Assembly: GCF_011947195.1 (NCBI RefSeq)
Contig: NZ_JAATVY010000009.1
Coordinates: forward strand, 1 to 64,000
Reading direction: 5' to 3'
Length of the DNA stretch: 64,000 bases
DNA from: Planosporangium thailandense
GTDB taxonomy: Bacteria; Actinomycetota; Actinomycetes; Mycobacteriales; Micromonosporaceae
In this document: positions 16,662 through 24,383 of the stretch, in pieces
Position numbering within the stretch: position 1 is the first letter of the stretch
How the letters are laid out: each line of letters begins with the position of its first letter
Notes under the pieces: model-generated
Told to the model about the DNA's origin: nothing
The model's database searches: none
The model's input: only the letters and a program-made list of their open reading frames with translations
Made by a program: the position numbers and the translations under genes

Positions 16662-17942
16662 TTAGAGCGCGCTGCCCTTCACCCAGTCGTCCCAGCTCAT
16701 GTTCCAGCCGCCGGGGCTGTCCCACAGCTGCAACTGCTTGGGCGTGTTCCTGACGTCGACCACGTCGCCCGGCCCGAAGTTGTTGTAGATCCAGTCGATG
16801 TTGGCGGGGCCGATGTTGATGCAGCCGTGCGAGGTGTTGGTGTGGCCGTGGGCCCAGATGTTCCAGTCGGCCAGGTGCAGGTACTCACCGGAGTAGCTGA
16901 TCTGGACGGTCTTCTTGATGTCCTCGTCGTAGTAGAACTTGCTGGACTTGTCGGTCAGTCCGTAGCTGGCCGAGGACATGTGGGTCACCGGGGCCTTGCC
17001 GATGACGACGTGGGGGCCGCTGCGGGTCCAGAAGTCGATCGTCTGGCCGTTGGCGCCCTTGGTCTCGCCGCCCATGCCCATGCTGACCGGGATCGTCTTC
17101 ACCAGCTCGCCGTCGACGTACACCTTCATGATCTTGCTGGCGGAGTCGGCGATCGCGATCTTCGACTGACCGATCTTGAACGACGCGCTCACGTCGGACT
17201 GGCCGTAGAGCCCGTTACCGAGGTCCTTGCCGTAGACGGTCGCCTTGACAGTGACCTGGGTGCCGCTCTTCCAGTACTCCTTGGGCCGCCACTGCACCTC
17301 CTGGTTGCCGTTCCAGTGCCAGGCGCCCTCGACCTCGGGGCTCGTGGTGACCTGGAGGGTGCGCTGCGCGGCCGCCTTGTCGGGGATCGGCTCGTCCCAG
17401 TGCACGATCACGGGCTGGCCGACGCCGTAGGTGCCGCCGTCCTGGAGGAGGTGGGACGCGCTGGCCTGCAGGTACGGCTGGGTCATGTTGGGCGGCTTGA
17501 GGGTGGTGAAGGAGGCGACCTGCTCGATGTGCTGGTGGGCGCTGTTGGTGCCGTCCGCCGTCACCTTGTACTGCTTGCCGTAGCCCAGGTATTCGGTGGT
17601 GTGCCAGGTCTTGTGTGCCGCGTCGAACTCGCCGCTGACCTGCTTGCCGTCGGCATTGGCGACCGTGACGGTCTCCAGGGTGGCGTCCTTGGCGGTCACG
17701 TTGACGGGGTCGAGAACGGAGACGTCGGTGGTGTCGGCGGCCGGAGTGATCTTGAACTCACCGGGCGCCTTCTTCACGCCGACTCCGCCGGCGCCGCCCG
17801 CCTCGCCGGAGGGCATGCCCGATCCCGGACTGCGCCAGGCCGCCGTGTTGTCAGGGGCGCATCCGGCGACCGCAACCAGCGCCAGTGCGACGGCCGCCAG
17901 CCCGGCAAGCCGGGTGTACGACCGACGAGGCGGCTTGTGCAT
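16662..17942 (-). CDS. L,D-transpeptidase lipoprotein (Ig-like plus YkuD)
   Basis: 426 residues. A lipobox LVAVAGC places the lipidated Cys near 28. Two Ig-like beta domains follow (about 60-150 and 150-255), then a YkuD catalytic domain (about 258-400) with [13 protein letters not shown] supplying His and the catalytic Cys. This is the architecture of mycobacterial LdtMt2-type enzymes, which form 3-3 cross-links in peptidoglycan and are inhibited by carbapenems. It acts at the outer face of the membrane. The gene ends 6 bp from the convergent MFS gene, with no room for a separate terminator. Confidence 0.93.
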
Positions 17943-18061
17943 TGCGCTCCTCCCCCAACACCTGTTCGTTCGTCACGCAATCTACTGAGCCCAGGCAAGC
18001 GATGCGACCCCACTACCGGCCCGCGTGTCGCGACGACCGGGTGGGCCATAAGGTAGAAACC

Positions 18062-19489
18062 GTGACGGTACGTGTACGGTTTGCACCCTCCCCGACCGGT
18101 ATGTTCCATGTCGGCGGCGCCCGCTCGGCGCTGCAGAACTGGATCTATGCCAAACAACACAACGGGGCGTTCGTCCTGCGTATCGAAGATACCGATGCGG
18201 CGCGCAACCGCCCCGAGTGGACCGAGGGCATCATCGCCGCCCTCGATTGGATCGGCATCAAGCGTGGCACGTACGAAGGCCCGTACTTCCAGTCCTCCTA
18301 CGCCGAACAGCACCGGGAGGCGGCCGCTCGGCTGAAGGAGTCTGGCCGAGCGTACTACTGCGACTGCACCCGCGAACAGATCCAGGAGCGCACCGGCAGC
18401 CAGTACATCGGCTACGACGGATACTGCCGCGACCGCGGGCTCGAGCCCGGCCCCGGCCGGGCGCTGCGCTTCCGTACCCCCGACGAGGGCCAGACCGTCG
18501 TCGAAGACCTGGTCCGCGGCTCGGTCGTGACGGAGAACGCCAACATCGAGGACTTCGTCATCGCCCGCGCCGACGGGTCGCCGGTCTTCCTGCTGGCCAA
18601 CGTCGTCGACGACGCGACGATGGGCATCACCCTCGTCATGCGCGCCGAGGAGCACCTGCCCAACACGCCCAAGCAGCAGCTGCTGTGGGAGGCGCTCGGG
18701 CTGCGGCCGCCGATCTGGGCGCACGTGCCCGTCGTGGTCAACGAGAAGCGTCAGAAGCTGTCGAAGCGGCGCGACAAGGTGGCGCTGGAGTCCTACCGCG
18801 ACGAGGGATACCTCGCCGACGCGATGCGCAACTACCTGATGCTGCTGGGGTGGGCGCCGTCCGGAAACCGGGAGATCGTCCCCTGGTCGGTGATCGAGCA
18901 GGAGTTCCGGCTGGAGGACGTCAACCCGTCCCCCGCGTTCTTCGACGAGAAGAAGCTGCGGGCGTTCAACGGCGAGTACATCCGGGCGCTGAGCCTGGAG
19001 GAGTTCATCGACGCCTGCCAGCCGTGGCTGACCGGTACCCAGGTCGCGCCCGGCGCGGCGGCCGTCGCCGCGCCGCCGTGGCGCCCCGGCGACTTCGACC
19101 CGAAGGTGTTCGCCGCCGTCGCCCCGCTGGCGCAGACCCGGGTGGCGGTGCTGTCCGAGATCGTGCCGAACGTCGACTTCCTGTTCCTGGCCGAGCCGGC
19201 GATCGACGAGGCGGCGTGGGCGAAGGCCATGAAGGAAGGCGCCGCCGACCTGCTCCAGGCCGCGGTGGCCGCGTTCGAGAACGCGCCGTGGGACGCGGAG
19301 TCGCTCAAGACCACGCTGGAGGCCGTGGGCACCGAACGCGGGCTCAAGCTCGGCAAGGCACAGGCGCCCGTACGCGTGGCCGTGACCGGCCGGTCGGTCG
19401 GGCTGCCGCTGTTCGAGTCGCTGGAGGTGCTCGGCCGCGAGCGCACGCTGGCCCGGCTGCGCGCCGCGCTGGCGAAGCTGGCCGGCTGA
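18062..19489 (+). CDS. gltX: Glutamyl-tRNA synthetase
   Basis: 475 residues from GTG 18062. Class I aminoacyl-tRNA synthetase: [20 protein letters not shown] holds the HIGH-type motif, [11 protein letters not shown] is the KMSKS-type loop, and [15 protein letters not shown] lies in the inserted domain. The C-terminal anticodon-binding region is complete. It charges tRNA-Glu (and possibly tRNA-Gln in organisms using the amidotransferase route) with glutamate. The ribosome site is weak; the start is chosen because [12 protein letters not shown] is the normal family beginning. A strong hairpin follows at 19500. Confidence 0.95.
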
Positions 19490-19532: not shown

Positions 19533-19609
19533 TTCCATGTGTACGGACGGGGCGGCGCGGCGGGTGCTGATCCGGTAGCGTGGCCGGCCGGACAGCGTGG
19601 GGAGGCACC

Positions 19610-19918
19610 GTGCCGGGTGGGCAGTTCGAGGTCGTGGCCGACGCGTTGCGCCAGCACGCGAACGCGGTGGAGGCGATCGCCGACCACATCGAGACCGCTC
19701 GCGCCGCCGGCGCGCAGGTGCGGCTGGGCCGCGGCGCATACGGCATGCTGCCGGTCTGCCAGATGATCTCGATGCTGCTCGACCCCATCCAGCAGCGCGG
19801 GGTGGATGCCCTGGCGGCCGCGAGGGACGCGCTGCACGGCTCGGCCGACGCGGTGCGCACGGCGGCGACCCGCTACGACGCCACGGACGCCGCGGCGCGG
19901 GCGCGGTTGGCCCCGTAG
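19610..19918 (+). CDS. EspC-like type VII secretion-associated small helical protein
   Basis: 102 residues from GTG 19610, with GGGGAGG just upstream. It is almost all helical: FEVVADALRQHANAVEAIADHI, a middle MLPVCQMISMLLDPIQQRGV, and LAAARDALHGSADAVRTAATRYDATDAAA. The layout matches the DUF2580/EspC (PF10824) family of small ESX-associated proteins related to WXG100 substrates, including an acidic/aromatic YDATD near the C-terminus that resembles the YxxxD export signal. No ESX machinery gene is in the window, so export is inferred. It sits 73 bp before the resolvase-fusion gene on the same strand. Confidence 0.65.
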   Translation: MPGGQFEVVADALRQHANAVEAIADHIETARAAGAQVRLGRGAYGMLPVCQMISMLLDPIQQRGVDALAAARDALHGSADAVRTAATRYDATDAAARARLAP

Positions 19919-19991
19919 GGACGCATTTACCTGCTCAAACGCGCTTTCGCGTCGAGGTGCGCGCGGTGCGCGGTCCCGTAAAGTACCCGTC

Positions 19992-21311
19992 ATGAAGGCC
20001 GCGGTCTACCTGCGGATCAGCGCCGGCCGGGCGGACCGCGAGCCCGACCTCGAGCGCCAGCGCGCCGGCTGCCTGCGGTTGGCGGGTGCGCTCGGCGCCG
20101 ACGTGGTGGCGGTGTACTCCGACGACGGCGCCGACGGGCCGGCCCCGGGCCCCGACCGCCGGCCGGCCTACCGCCGGCTGCTCGCCGACGCGGGGGCGCG
20201 CCGCTTCGGCACCGTCATCGCGTACACGTCGGGTCGGCTCGCGCAGCGGCCCGCCGAGTACGAGGACCTCATCGACCTGGCGCAGCGGCACGGCATCCGG
20301 TTCGCGTACGTGCTGCCGGCAGCCGCGGAGGCCGGGTCGGCGCTGGCCCCGATCGTCGGCGCGGCCGGCACGTTCCGCAGGCTGGCCGGTGAGCTGGCCC
20401 CGGAGCTGAGAGGGCTGCTGGCAGACGCCGGTCCGGCCATCGAACCGTTCGCCGAAGGCGTGGCCGGCTTCGTTCGCAACGCGATGCCGGGCGTCCGGGC
20501 GCTGGTCCGGCAGTCCGCCCCGGCGGTCACCGAACTCAGCCGCGCGCTACCCGCCTGGGGGCACGCGACGGGCGCGTTCCTCGGCGGCGTGGCGCCGGGC
20601 GCGCCGGGTACGGCGGCCCTCGTCACCGACGTCGTCGGCCTCGCGACGACCCACGCTCGGTTCTGGGGTGACGTGGTCGGCCGGCTGGCCGACCGGTACC
20701 TGGCGCTGCGCGGGCTGGCCGACGACGCCGGCGCGGCGTTCGCCGCGCTGCCCGAGCGGGCGCGGATCGTCGTCGTGGGCGCGTTCGACCAGACCACCAC
20801 CGCCGTCGGGGTCGGCATCGGCGCGGCGCTGCGGTCCCACGCCTCCGGCGCCCTGCCCGGCGTCGTCCGCCAGGGCCTGGCGGGCACCGCGAACGCCGCG
20901 AACTCGGCGGCGTCCGCGCTGGTCGGTGCGGCTATGGGCGTCGCGGCGGGCGTGCCGGTGCGGCTCGGCAGGGCGGTGGGCGGCCTCGGCGGACCGGTAC
21001 GGTACGCGGGGGCGCGGCTGCGGGCGGAGGGCCGCGAACTGGCCGGCGGGGTGGCCGGCGGCGCGGAGTCGGCGGCCGGGTTCACCCTCGCCGCCGTCGA
21101 ACGCGCGACCGGCAACATCCTGGCGGGCGTACGCAGCGGCCTCGCGCCGCCGGCGGCCGTCGGGGCGGTCGCCCTGCCCGGCGGCATCGCCGTCAACGAC
21201 CTGCGCATCAACCTGTACGCCCCGGGCGAGCTCAGCGATCCGGCGACGGTCGACCGGGTCGCCGCCGGCGTCCACGAGGCGCTCAACCGGTTCCGCCGCG
21301 AGTACGCATAA
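19992..21311 (+). CDS. Serine-recombinase N-domain fused to Ala/Gly-rich tape-measure-like tail
   Basis: 439 residues from ATG 19992. Residues 1-108 fit a resolvase/invertase catalytic fold: AVYLRISAGRADREPDLERQR (catalytic Ser10 after YLRI), a Y.DDG turn, RPAYRRLLADAGARRFGTVI, and SGRLAQRPAEYEDLIDLAQRHG in place of the usual DRLSR region. The domain then breaks off before the long E helix and carries no zinc ribbon or HTH. Residues 112-440 form a long Ala/Gly-rich helical and hydrophobic tail (for example RGLLADAGPAIEPFAEGVAG and LTAARFW-like segments) ending in GGIAVNDLRINLYAPGEL. That style is seen in phage tail tape-measure proteins. No frameshift is visible. Function unknown; a direct DNA recombinase seems unlikely without a DNA-binding domain. 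Confidence 0.6.
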   Translation: MKAAVYLRISAGRADREPDLERQRAGCLRLAGALGADVVAVYSDDGADGPAPGPDRRPAYRRLLADAGARRFGTVIAYTSGRLAQRPAEYEDLIDLAQRHGIRFAYVLPAAAEAGSALAPIVGAAGTFRRLAGELAPELRGLLADAGPAIEPFAEGVAGFVRNAMPGVRALVRQSAPAVTELSRALPAWGHATGAFLGGVAPGAPGTAALVTDVVGLATTHARFWGDVVGRLADRYLALRGLADDAGAAFAALPERARIVVVGAFDQTTTAVGVGIGAALRSHASGALPGVVRQGLAGTANAANSAASALVGAAMGVAAGVPVRLGRAVGGLGGPVRYAGARLRAEGRELAGGVAGGAESAAGFTLAAVERATGNILAGVRSGLAPPAAVGAVALPGGIAVNDLRINLYAPGELSDPATVDRVAAGVHEALNRFRREYA

Positions 21312-21318
21312 TCCAGTG

Positions 21319-22134
21319 ATGGAGTTGGACCTGCCGATCTGTCGGACCTGCGGCGTGCAGTACCCGGCGCCGCGCGCGGACTGTCCGATCTGTCTGGACG
21401 AGCGGCAGTACGTGGGCTGGTCGGGTCAGCGCTGGACCTCCCTGGCGGAGCTGGCGGCCGGCGGTCACCGAGGCGAGCTCAGGGCGCAGGGCGAGGACGT
21501 GACCGGCGTCGGCACCACGCCGTCGTTCGCGATCGGACAGCGCGCGCTCCTGCTCCAGCGGCCCGGCGGGAACATCCTGTGGGACTGTGTCAGCTACCTC
21601 GACGACGCCCTGGTGGAGCAGGTGACCGCCCTCGGCGGGATCAGCGCGATCGCCGTCAGCCATCCGCACTTCCACGGTTCCATGGTCGAATGGGCGCACG
21701 CCTTCGACGCGCCCGTCCACATCCACGCCGCCGACCGCGACTGGGTCGTACGCCCGGACCCGGCCGTGGTCTTCTGGGACGGCGACACCCTCGAGCTCGG
21801 CGACGGGCTCACCCTGATCAACGCCGGGGTGCACTTCGACGGCGGCCAGGTGCTGCACTGGCGGGACGCCGACGGCGGCCGGGGCGCGCTGTTCTCCGGC
21901 GACATCCTCCAGGTGGTGCGCGACCGGCGCTGGCTGAGCTTCATGTACAGCTACCCCAACCTCATCCCGGAGCGCCCCCGTACGATCCGGCGGGCGCTCG
22001 CGCTGCTCGAGCCGTACCCGTTCGAGCGGGTGTACGGCGCGTGGTGGGACCTCGTCGTCGGCACCGACGGCGCCGCGGCGGTGCGCCGCTCCGCGGACCG
22101 GTACCTGCGCTTCGCCCTCGACGACGCCGATTAG
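21319..22134 (+). CDS. Metallo-beta-lactamase-fold hydrolase with N-terminal zinc-ribbon
   Basis: 271 residues from ATG 21319, 7 nt after the previous stop. The N-terminus has two CxxC pairs (CRTCGVQYPAPRADCPIC) that should bind zinc like a rubredoxin or ribbon. The MBL-fold body follows: LLLQRPGGNILWDCVSYLD, a metal-site SHPHFHGSM near 114 and FSGDILQVV near 194. The usual HxHxDH is altered (HPHFH without the Asp-His), so metal binding may differ from typical hydrolases. Substrate is unknown. The tight spacing suggests cotranscription with the resolvase-fusion gene. Confidence 0.8.
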   Translation: MELDLPICRTCGVQYPAPRADCPICLDERQYVGWSGQRWTSLAELAAGGHRGELRAQGEDVTGVGTTPSFAIGQRALLLQRPGGNILWDCVSYLDDALVEQVTALGGISAIAVSHPHFHGSMVEWAHAFDAPVHIHAADRDWVVRPDPAVVFWDGDTLELGDGLTLINAGVHFDGGQVLHWRDADGGRGALFSGDILQVVRDRRWLSFMYSYPNLIPERPRTIRRALALLEPYPFERVYGAWWDLVVGTDGAAAVRRSADRYLRFALDDAD

Positions 22135-22199: not shown

Positions 22200-22262
22200 G
22201 CGCCCCGATCCGGACGATGATCTGGAATGACGACTACCTTCAATCCCGGGAAGGATTTGCGG

Positions 22263-24383
22263 ATGTCAGCGAGGCTCGTCGACGGGCCAGGCCGGACGCC
22301 CGAAGCGGCGCGGCCCTGGCGCGTGCGAGCCATCCGCTCCGGGGGCCTGATGGGGGTCGTCGGACCCGGCATCGCGGCGTCGTACACGCTGGCGACGTGG
22401 CACGACCCGCACCGCCCCGCCATGCTCGCGGTCGCCGGGGGCCTGCTGGCGGCCACCGTCGCGAACTGGTGGCGCGCCCCGGCGATCGCCCGGTCCCGGG
22501 CGCGGATCCCGCTGCAGGTGGCCGCCGCGCTCGTCAACGTGCTGGGCTCCGCCCTGCTGGGGCTGCTCGACGGCGGGGTCGCCAGCCCGCTGGGTCCGCT
22601 GGTGCTGTTCTCCCTGATCTTCTTCGCGGTCCTGATGCCCCCTCGGATGTTCGTCGGCATCTACACCGTCACCATCGCCGCATACTGGTCGGTGGCGCTG
22701 CTGGGTGACCCGACCCCGGCCGGCTACCCCTGTGTCTACACGCTGGCGTTCACCGGCCTCGCGTACCTGTGTGTACGACACACGCGCACGCTCGCGTCGC
22801 TGCGCCGCCGGCTCAGCGAGGCCTCGCGCGTCGATCCGCTGACGAGGTGCCTCAACCGTCGCGGCTTCGACGAACGGCTCGGGCAGGAGCTGGCCCGGGC
22901 CGTACGCAAAGGGGCGCCGGTCACGCTGGTCGTCGCCGACCTCGACCGGTTCAAGGACGTCAACGACACGTACGGCCACCGGGTCGGCGACGACGTGCTC
23001 ACGTGGGCCGCCCAGACCATGCTGCGGCAGTTGCGCGCGTACGACGCGGTCGGGCGCCTCGGCGGCGACGAGTTCGCGATGGTCCTGAGCGGGACCGGCC
23101 CGGGCGAGGCGGAGGTCACCGTCGAGCGGCTCCGCGCGGCGCTGGATCCGGTCGCGCCCGCCTCGGTCGGGTACGCCTCGTACCCCGCGGACGCCGCCAC
23201 CGCCCACGAGCTCATGCAGCGGGCGGACGAGCGGGTCTACCGCGACAAGACCGGCCGCGAGGCCGGCCGCGCGGCCGGCCGCACCGGGCGCGTACCGAGC
23301 GCGGACGCGATAGCCGCCGCACGCCGCCAGCTCGACCGCGTGGAGACGGCGAAGGTCTCCCGCCAGGAGCGCCGCCGCCGCTCCATCGCCGGCATGGGCG
23401 GAATAGCCGTGTCCAACTTCACCATCGGCCTGGTCTACGCGGCCGTCTTCGCCACGGCGGCGCCGCACCGGTTGGCGATGGGCGTCCTGTGCGCCATCGG
23501 CTGCGCGTCGGGGCTGCTCGTGGTGGGCGGAGCCGACTGGTTGAGCCGGTCGCCCGCCGGGCGGTGGCTCATGGCCACCTTCGCGGTCGGTCTGATCCCC
23601 GTCGGCGCCGCCGTGGCCGTGCTCGACGGCGGAACGGGCTCGCCGACGATCCTCGGCACGCTGGTCCCCATGCCGTTGGTCGCGCTCAGCACGCCACTGC
23701 GGGTAGCGGTACCCGTCGTCGCCGGATTGTCCGCCTTCTACCTGGTCGTCGCGGCGGTCGTCGGCTCGCCGGGCGGCTGGTACGTCGCCCTGCACCTCGC
23801 CGGCATCATTTCGATCTCGGCCATCTGCGCGGCGCAGGGCCGTACCGCCGCGCGGCAACGACTCCTGCTGACCCGGTTGTCCCGCGTCGACGTGCTGACC
23901 GACTGCCTCAACCGGCGGGGCTTCGAGGACCGGTTCACCGCCGAACTGGCGCGCACCCAACGTACCGGCGGAACGCTGTCCCTGCTGATCTTCGACCTGG
24001 ACGGGTTCAAGAAGCTCAACGACGCGCACGGGCACGCCGCCGGGGACGATCTCCTACGCTGGGTCGCCACCACCCTGCGGGACAACATCCAGCCCCACGA
24101 CGTGGTCGCCCGCCTCGGCGGCGACGAGTTCGTCGTCCTGCTCGGCTCCGCGCCCGAGGCGGACGCCAGGCGGGTCGCGGACCGCCTCGTGGCCCGACTC
24201 GCCGCACGCGCCTCGGCGAGCGTCGGCGTCGCCACGCTTCCCGAGCACGGGCTGACCTTCGACGCCCTGTACGCCCACGCCGACGGCGATCTGTACGGCC
24301 AGAAGGCCACCCGGCAGACGGCCCGGCGGGTCAGCCGGTCCGGTGCCTCCACGAACCTGCGTACGGGTACCTCGGCGCCCTGA
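22263..24383 (+). CDS. Double-GGDEF membrane protein (putative diguanylate cyclase)
   Basis: 706 residues from ATG 22263, preferred over an ATG 36 nt upstream because AAGGA at 22251-22255 is correctly spaced. Two complete modules lie in tandem: about five transmembrane helices (30-175) then GGDEF domain 1 (about 190-330, GRLGGDEF), then a second membrane block (about 380-530) and GGDEF domain 2 (about 540-690, ARLGGDEF). Domain 1 has an inhibitory-site RxxD (RAYD) five residues before its GGDEF; domain 2 has QPHD there, so the site is lost. Both active sites look intact, so the protein should make cyclic-di-GMP, with feedback through domain 1 only. No EAL domain is present. Confidence 0.9.
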   Translation: MSARLVDGPGRTPEAARPWRVRAIRSGGLMGVVGPGIAASYTLATWHDPHRPAMLAVAGGLLAATVANWWRAPAIARSRARIPLQVAAALVNVLGSALLGLLDGGVASPLGPLVLFSLIFFAVLMPPRMFVGIYTVTIAAYWSVALLGDPTPAGYPCVYTLAFTGLAYLCVRHTRTLASLRRRLSEASRVDPLTRCLNRRGFDERLGQELARAVRKGAPVTLVVADLDRFKDVNDTYGHRVGDDVLTWAAQTMLRQLRAYDAVGRLGGDEFAMVLSGTGPGEAEVTVERLRAALDPVAPASVGYASYPADAATAHELMQRADERVYRDKTGREAGRAAGRTGRVPSADAIAAARRQLDRVETAKVSRQERRRRSIAGMGGIAVSNFTIGLVYAAVFATAAPHRLAMGVLCAIGCASGLLVVGGADWLSRSPAGRWLMATFAVGLIPVGAAVAVLDGGTGSPTILGTLVPMPLVALSTPLRVAVPVVAGLSAFYLVVAAVVGSPGGWYVALHLAGIISISAICAAQGRTAARQRLLLTRLSRVDVLTDCLNRRGFEDRFTAELARTQRTGGTLSLLIFDLDGFKKLNDAHGHAAGDDLLRWVATTLRDNIQPHDVVARLGGDEFVVLLGSAPEADARRVADRLVARLAARASASVGVATLPEHGLTFDALYAHADGDLYGQKATRQTARRVSRSGASTNLRTGTSAP

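Follow-up and report, generated by a model that had tools for sequence, protein, structure and literature searches.

A serine-recombinase and tape-measure chimera near gltX in Planosporangium, under purifying selection and probably derived by prophage deletion

The window analyzed here, a stretch of 64,000 nucleotides from Planosporangium thailandense (contig NZ_JAATVY010000009.1 of assembly GCF_011947195.1), contains a single 439-aa ORF at 19992-21311 on the forward strand, with its ATG at 19992 and its stop codon at 21309-21311, as an earlier sequence-only reading had it. The product joins the catalytic-domain part of a serine recombinase of the LSR type to a tail resembling phage tape-measure proteins (TMPs). 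A second in-frame ATG lies farther 5', at 19806; homology and conservation start only from 19992. The parts of the gene and its immediate neighbors are as follows:

17885..19489, + strand: gltX (glutamyl-tRNA synthetase; PF00749 and PF19269), the ORF as listed, with the true start farther in
19580-19918, + strand: EspC-like ORF between gltX and the fusion gene (PF10824, E 1.4e-8), ending 73 bp 5' of the latter
19979..19984, + strand: -10-like hexamer TAAAGT, 7 nt 5' of the ATG (four-genome upstream alignment)
19992..20315, + strand: residues 1-108, LSR catalytic-domain fold without helix E (PF00239, phrog_95, model, Foldseek, residue table)
20316..20345, + strand: LSR/TMP junction, approximately residues 109-118 (alignments with LSRs and sister copies, by eye)
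20346..20918, + strand: TMP-core profile match, residues 119-309 (A3 profile, E 4.5e-23; phage TMP matches)
20919..21176, + strand: variable Ala/Gly-rich helical stretch, residues 310-395 (weakly conserved, low model confidence)
21177..21311, + strand: conserved C-terminus, residues 396-439 (hairpin and helix), and stop codon (omega 0.067; pLDDT 54-78 by block for 401-439)
21319..22134, + strand: MBL-fold hydrolase, the 3' neighbor (PF00753, E 1e-5)

The fusion gene thus lies outside any tail operon, its neighbors being gltX, the EspC-like ORF and the MBL-fold hydrolase. It was found close 3' of gltX in all four genomes of the genus: that of the window (G000), Planosporangium flavigriseum TBRC 198 (G001), P. 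mesophilum NBRC 109066 (G002) and a MAG labelled Dactylosporangium sp. RYN_162, with 6% contamination (G003). The order of gltX, one small ORF and fusion gene is common to the four, and the gltX products are 83-92% identical as aligned, the lowest pair including sequence 5' of the likely start. The MBL-fold gene follows the fusion in three of the four, although internally deleted in P. flavigriseum (L003, 2455-2913, 156 aa in open frame); P. mesophilum has only short remnants, identified by eye (L004, about 1430-1495). The fusion/MBL locus looks deletion-prone. For an ancestral form of the locus in other genera, the 1.5-kb flanks of MBL relatives outside the genus were inspected by eye: the ORFs in the flanks of six of the eight, all but the two weaker relatives L064 and L065, included neither gltX nor the fusion. 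An ORF farther 3' in the window, at 22227-24380 (+), encodes 718 aa and matches GGDEF (PF00990) in two stretches (E 2.4e-70). Each of the two domains is preceded by its own hydrophobic region, as judged by eye, as if an entire membrane diguanylate cyclase had been duplicated in tandem.

One possibility raised by this neighborhood, and by the sequence-only reading in proposing a novel effector, is that the fusion encodes a secreted or effector protein whose functional partner would be the EspC-like (type VII) gene next to it. The EspC-like ORF is supported by its Pfam match and lies directly upstream, but at the fusion locus it occurs in P. thailandense only. The corresponding region in the other three genomes is occupied by an opposite-strand ORF whose N-terminal end is hydrophobic and whose C-terminus is charged and repetitive, and the seven EspC-like matches found in them are all on contigs other than that of the fusion. 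A conserved pairing across the genus is refuted, and the effector proposal, which did not hold up, now seems scarcely credible.

The start region itself is conserved. In the upstream alignment of the four genomes, CGTAANGTAC...CATG is kept, and each copy has TAAAGT or a variant of it, a gap of 6-7 nt, and the ATG. This arrangement suggests a leaderless start, with TAAAGT as candidate promoter. Since several related LSR genes also have leaderless-looking start sites (by eye), it further suggests that the chimera took over the promoter of an integrase.

Copies of the gene differ considerably in what they retain. Full-length versions are found in P. thailandense (439 aa) and the MAG (473 aa); the P. 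flavigriseum copy is missing residues ~24-112, and that of P. mesophilum residues ~249-428, both with a net change that keeps the frame. What all four retain is an N-terminal stretch of 23 residues, the TMP core (113-248), and a handful of residues at the C-terminus. Beyond the genus, neither the 354 family genomes nor the 397 order genomes searched gave a match across both parts, among the matches listed: in the family search such matches came from G000, G002 and G003 (G001 matching by the tail and its first 23 residues only), and in the order search from the window's own genome alone, the three sisters being outside the draw. With four candidates scored per genome, these searches may have passed over a more diverged second example. 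Searching the genome_contigs collection by alignment returned 22 loci, three of them the sister copies; a single-protein query found none. No family in the libraries searched spans the full length of the protein, in keeping with the earlier remark that no named family has this order of parts, and the suggested search for the full-length architecture leads to a gene of one genus, as far as the listed matches go. At the level of titles and abstract starts, we found no description of a serine recombinase-tape measure fusion, and none of the papers listed on tape measures and domesticated prophages in actinobacteria, on inactive or domesticated serine recombinases, or on tape measures and prophage remnants under purifying selection showed this architecture.

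That the N-terminal part is a resolvase catalytic domain, with Ser10 within the motif YLRIS, had been proposed from the letters and is confirmed. PF00239 (Resolvase) covers residues 3-108 with E 2.5e-12 and 47.5 bits (cut-off 23.3), the same residues match the integrase family phrog_95 (E 1e-11), and the catalytic domain of TP901-1 integrase is the best PDB match both by sequence (E 1.5e-4) and by fold (Foldseek). The resolvase-type fold, which had been set as a test, is present in a confident AlphaFold2 model: over residues 1-110, mean pLDDT is 87-97 in eight of the 11 10-residue blocks and 60-73 in the other three. The closest relatives are actinobacterial prophage LSRs carrying the motif ISDDREGREL, whose N-terminal ~110 residues are alike (up to 53.5% identity over 114 residues, for the G003 copy against IMG/VR locus L099). 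A recombinase fold is also found in poxvirus OPG061, a catalytically inactive protein of the serine-recombinase fold, which appears among the weak Foldseek matches (ranks 29, 31, 34, 37, and 38), but its origin is unrelated and its partner domains differ.

Unlike the LSRs, whose fold it shares, the fusion has no helix E and no recombinase or zinc-ribbon domain: PF00239, ending at residue 108, was the sole Pfam hit of the window protein, with no DNA-binding domain matched, which agrees with the earlier observation that both these and helix E are missing. Good LSR alignment stops short of helix E, LSR profile matches end by residue 154, and the junction, placed by eye from alignments with LSRs and sister copies, falls approximately where helix E of an LSR would start. 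By BLAST the boundary is not razor-sharp, because some LSR alignments made without composition correction extend at low identity to residues 167-234.

In serine recombinases, Ser10 is the nucleophile, and an arginine network (Arg8, Arg68, and Arg71 in gamma-delta resolvase numbering) has catalytic roles. The window protein retains Ser10 and the equivalents of Arg8 and Arg68; its Arg71-equivalent is Gln85. In an alignment (A5) of 24 LSR domains (18 from genome_contigs and six from IMG/VR; L088, L090, L105, and the LSR loci from the family and order searches are left out), this position is Arg in all 24, whereas the three fusions that reach it have Q, H and E. The 15 LSRs of a BLAST alignment also have Arg there, judged by eye. 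Ser10 is kept in three of the four fusion copies and is Asn in that of P. flavigriseum, which does without most of the LSR domain. Without an Arg71-equivalent, and with neither helix E nor DNA-binding domains, the protein is very probably unable to recombine DNA, and selection on the LSR domain must therefore serve something else.

The second half of the sequence-only reading, a tape-measure-like tail, holds in part: the core is homologous to TMPs, but a TMP origin for the C-terminal GGIAVNDLRINLYAPGEL was not confirmed. For the core, a profile (A3) was made from seven TMPs of other genera, with no sequence of the host genus included; of these seven proteins, six have a match in one or more tape-measure families of PHROGs, and the seventh, L025, matches phrog_34159. 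Run against the four whole Planosporangium-genus genomes, A3 gave one match in each at E<=1, always the fusion gene, with E-values of 4.5e-23 (G000), 5.6e-28 (G001), 2.2e-20 (G002), and 9.3e-27 (G003). In a local control with a profile of 11 TMPs, the window protein scored E 2.4e-23, and the best of 6000 composition-keeping shuffles E 0.11. A compositional artefact behind the resemblance is ruled out by these whole-genome and shuffle controls. Because A3 finds a single match per genome and the shuffles fail to match, the tail can be called TMP-derived, on sequence grounds, for residues 119-250; the homology probably extends to about residue 309. The A3 match begins at position 195 of the 623 in the profile, and the N-terminal part of the TMP is therefore absent.

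Searches of annotated phages by tblastn point the same way. With the tail of the window protein as query, 13 records matched (nine named tape measure protein, one tail protein, and three without a functional name); with that of G003 there were 16 (12, one, and three, respectively). All are from phages of actinobacteria, and the TMPs among them are ~30-40% identical to the tail across 63-134 residues. Whole-genome searches within the family show that the tail region recurs in long phage-type proteins, one of which, in genome G143, is 37% identical across 134 residues; the seven members of A3 were drawn from these proteins. The central core is thus shared with actinophage TMPs such as those of Streptomyces phage ToastyFinz and Rhodococcus phage REQ1, with Pas27 of phiAsp2, and with the PHROG TMP families and phrog_34159. 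The fusion differs from these TMPs in having an LSR domain in place of their N-terminal part, in lying outside a tail operon, and in its C-terminus, which is without a match.

Two annotations among the relatives may deserve revision. The family phrog_34159, listed as of unknown function, is matched by L025, L031, L033, L035, P0002, and P0004; it is probably a tape-measure family, because most of the phage-type proteins matching it also match TMP families. Pas27 of Actinoplanes phage phiAsp2 (L095, 6350-9286; ~978 aa), annotated as 'putative major tail protein', matches the TMP-derived tail and is more likely a tape-measure protein than a major tail protein.

As for the C-terminus, with GGIAVNDLRINLYAPGEL, fragments from it gave no PHROG or phage match; the last 44 residues are conserved among the copies that have them and are somewhat better modelled than the rest of the tail. 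Structure prediction, which had been expected to show a resolvase-type fold followed by a long helical tail, delivered the former with confidence, but the tail is poorly modelled: 22 of the 29 10-residue blocks of residues 111-400 are below pLDDT 60, and the overall mean is 60. This can be attributed to the shallow fold alignment there, since the viral searches found few TMP relatives (one locus for each of four queries, only L097 being a long TMP, and seven LSR loci for the fifth).

A TMP-derived tail joined to another module brings to mind a different possibility, namely that a contractile injection system (CIS) uses the protein as a tape-measure-like effector, of Sle1 or Tme type, loaded in a phage-tail-like particle. 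Actinobacterial CIS effectors described in PMC13277306 are likewise TMP-related and modular, with a TMP-derived helical part; Sle1 has its variable module at the C-terminus, whereas the extra module of the fusion is N-terminal. Against this reading, no PF04984 sheath match was found in the three near-complete genomes (G000, G001, and G002), against one in G003; the neighbors are gltX, a small ORF, and the MBL hydrolase, with no sheath or DUF4157 gene; and the ToastyFinz relative is in the usual place of a TMP, 3' of the tail-assembly chaperones in an ordinary phage tail operon. A search for DUF4157 (eCIS core), run without a positive control, matched none of the four genomes. With no sheath in three of the four, the CIS reading is rejected and appears very improbable. 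The single sheath gene (L106, contig C541, 6140-6601) occurs only in the MAG, and given the 6% contamination it may come from another organism.

If the protein is neither a recombinase nor an injected effector, is the gene doing anything at all? Nei-Gojobori dN/dS between G000 and G003 is 0.34 for residues 1-112, 0.35 for 113-255, 0.98 for 256-395, and 0.24 for 396-439. Neutral simulations (1000 runs, with the fourfold-site spectrum of gltX and the MBL gene) had mean dN/dS of 1.3-1.8; for this pair, values as low as those observed occurred in 0/1000 runs for 1-112, 113-255, and 396-439, and in 38/1000 for 256-395. Pairs with G001 gave 0/1000 for 113-255 and 396-439 and 5/1000 for 256-395, its 24 N-terminal codons being uninformative (366/1000), and pairs with G002 gave 0/1000 in both regions tested. 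Under the codon model GY+F3X4, omega is 0.10 for the N-terminal part (three genomes), 0.18 for the core (four), 0.18 for the middle (three), and 0.067 for the C-terminus (three), compared with 0.060 for gltX and 0.063 for the MBL gene next door; a fit constrained to omega = 1, with kappa kept at the value from the free fit, loses between 51 and 114 in 2dlnL, depending on the region. For the middle (256-395) the two methods disagree, near-neutral by the former and constrained by the latter. The gaps between G000 and G003 (24, 15, 3, and 60 nt) are all four multiples of three. In the other five pairs, fewer gaps are divisible by three as aligned (G000/G001 3/5, G003/G001 6/8, G000/G002 2/6, G003/G002 2/6, and G001/G002 1/6), and adjoining gaps sum to multiples of three, the frame being kept overall. 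The fusion gene is under purifying selection.

It is possible, though we think it unlikely, that this constraint dates from a period when the chimera or its parts were still of use, and that the gene, now functionless, is a relic in slow decay. Two of the four copies are without large parts, as for a gene on its way out (the recombinase core in P. flavigriseum, most of the second half of the tail in P. mesophilum), the Arg71-equivalent has been replaced by three different residues, and the middle is near-neutral by Nei-Gojobori. Against this, codon-model omega is low in every region, the frame has stayed open in four species despite the divergence of their gltX products, the G000/G003 gaps are all in frame, and conservation of the start region extends to all four genomes.

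Our preferred reading, which we consider probable as a joint claim, is that the gene is an int-tmp chimera derived from a prophage by deletion and selectively retained after loss of catalysis. Its sequence similarities show a genuine chimera, built from two phage genes. In the common ancestor of Planosporangium, a prophage would have integrated 3' of gltX. A deletion would then have left only the front of the prophage's serine-integrase gene, from the promoter through the start and catalytic domain up to helix E, and fused this in frame to an internal part of its tape-measure gene; the product would have been kept by the host as a single-copy, vertically inherited gene. Such a join within an integrated prophage is suggested by the start region, which looks taken over from an integrase. 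Among the suggestions made from the sequence alone, a degraded phage fusion under selection is the best fit, with its two phage-type parents, its missing catalytic residue and DNA-binding parts, and its measurable selection; a structural protein with a borrowed dimerising fold, offered as a separate idea, may be part of the same answer.

What such a chimera might do is more open to debate. The product would probably be a soluble, non-enzymatic, mostly helical protein; the best 19-residue hydropathy window of the window protein is 1.62 (1.31-1.87 in the other copies), with no strong membrane segment. The leading guess, a tentative one, is that the TMP core serves as a decoy, which would bind and spoil the tail-assembly or ejection partners of related siphophages, the recombinase fold acting as a folding or self-association module for it. 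TMPs are a plausible point of interference, because their C-termini are reported as superinfection-exclusion targets: PMC11480721 reports previous work on the Ltp exclusion protein, whose target is the C-terminus of the TMP.

Another possibility, again conceivable rather than likely, is that the host has exapted the protein for housekeeping, unconnected with phage interference; it might, for instance, be a helical protein with a structural or regulatory role in the hypha. The purifying selection and the fixed place near gltX in all four genomes would suit such a role, as would the lack of a strong membrane segment and the lack of any PADLOC match: of the three fusion proteins compared with PADLOC-DB (P0001, P0002, and P0004, the shortened G002 copy being left out), none matched at E<=0.01. 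On the other hand, nothing indicates a particular cellular role, and the large lineage-specific deletions speak against an essential one. Decoy, non-phage cellular role, and decaying relic seem to us about equally likely. The boldest version of the decoy idea, a bacterium-owned antiviral protein made from two genes of one prophage, in which the TMP core would poison siphophage tail assembly or ejection and the dead integrase domain would hold it together, must be called doubtful.

Host takeover of prophage genes is well known, as a rule of whole genes or modules. The prophage-deletion chimera would belong to this known kind, host-retained prophage genes, and its architecture is new: what looks like an accidental in-frame join of two functionally unrelated phage genes, its product under selection while the species of the genus diverged. 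Judging from the deletion variants in the sister species, the TMP core is the large segment that every copy keeps. If phage interference is its role, the core would be a decoy made from the length ruler of the tail, and this would be a type of defence by ruler mimicry; if not, the gene would still be a clean case of a new gene arising from prophage decay.
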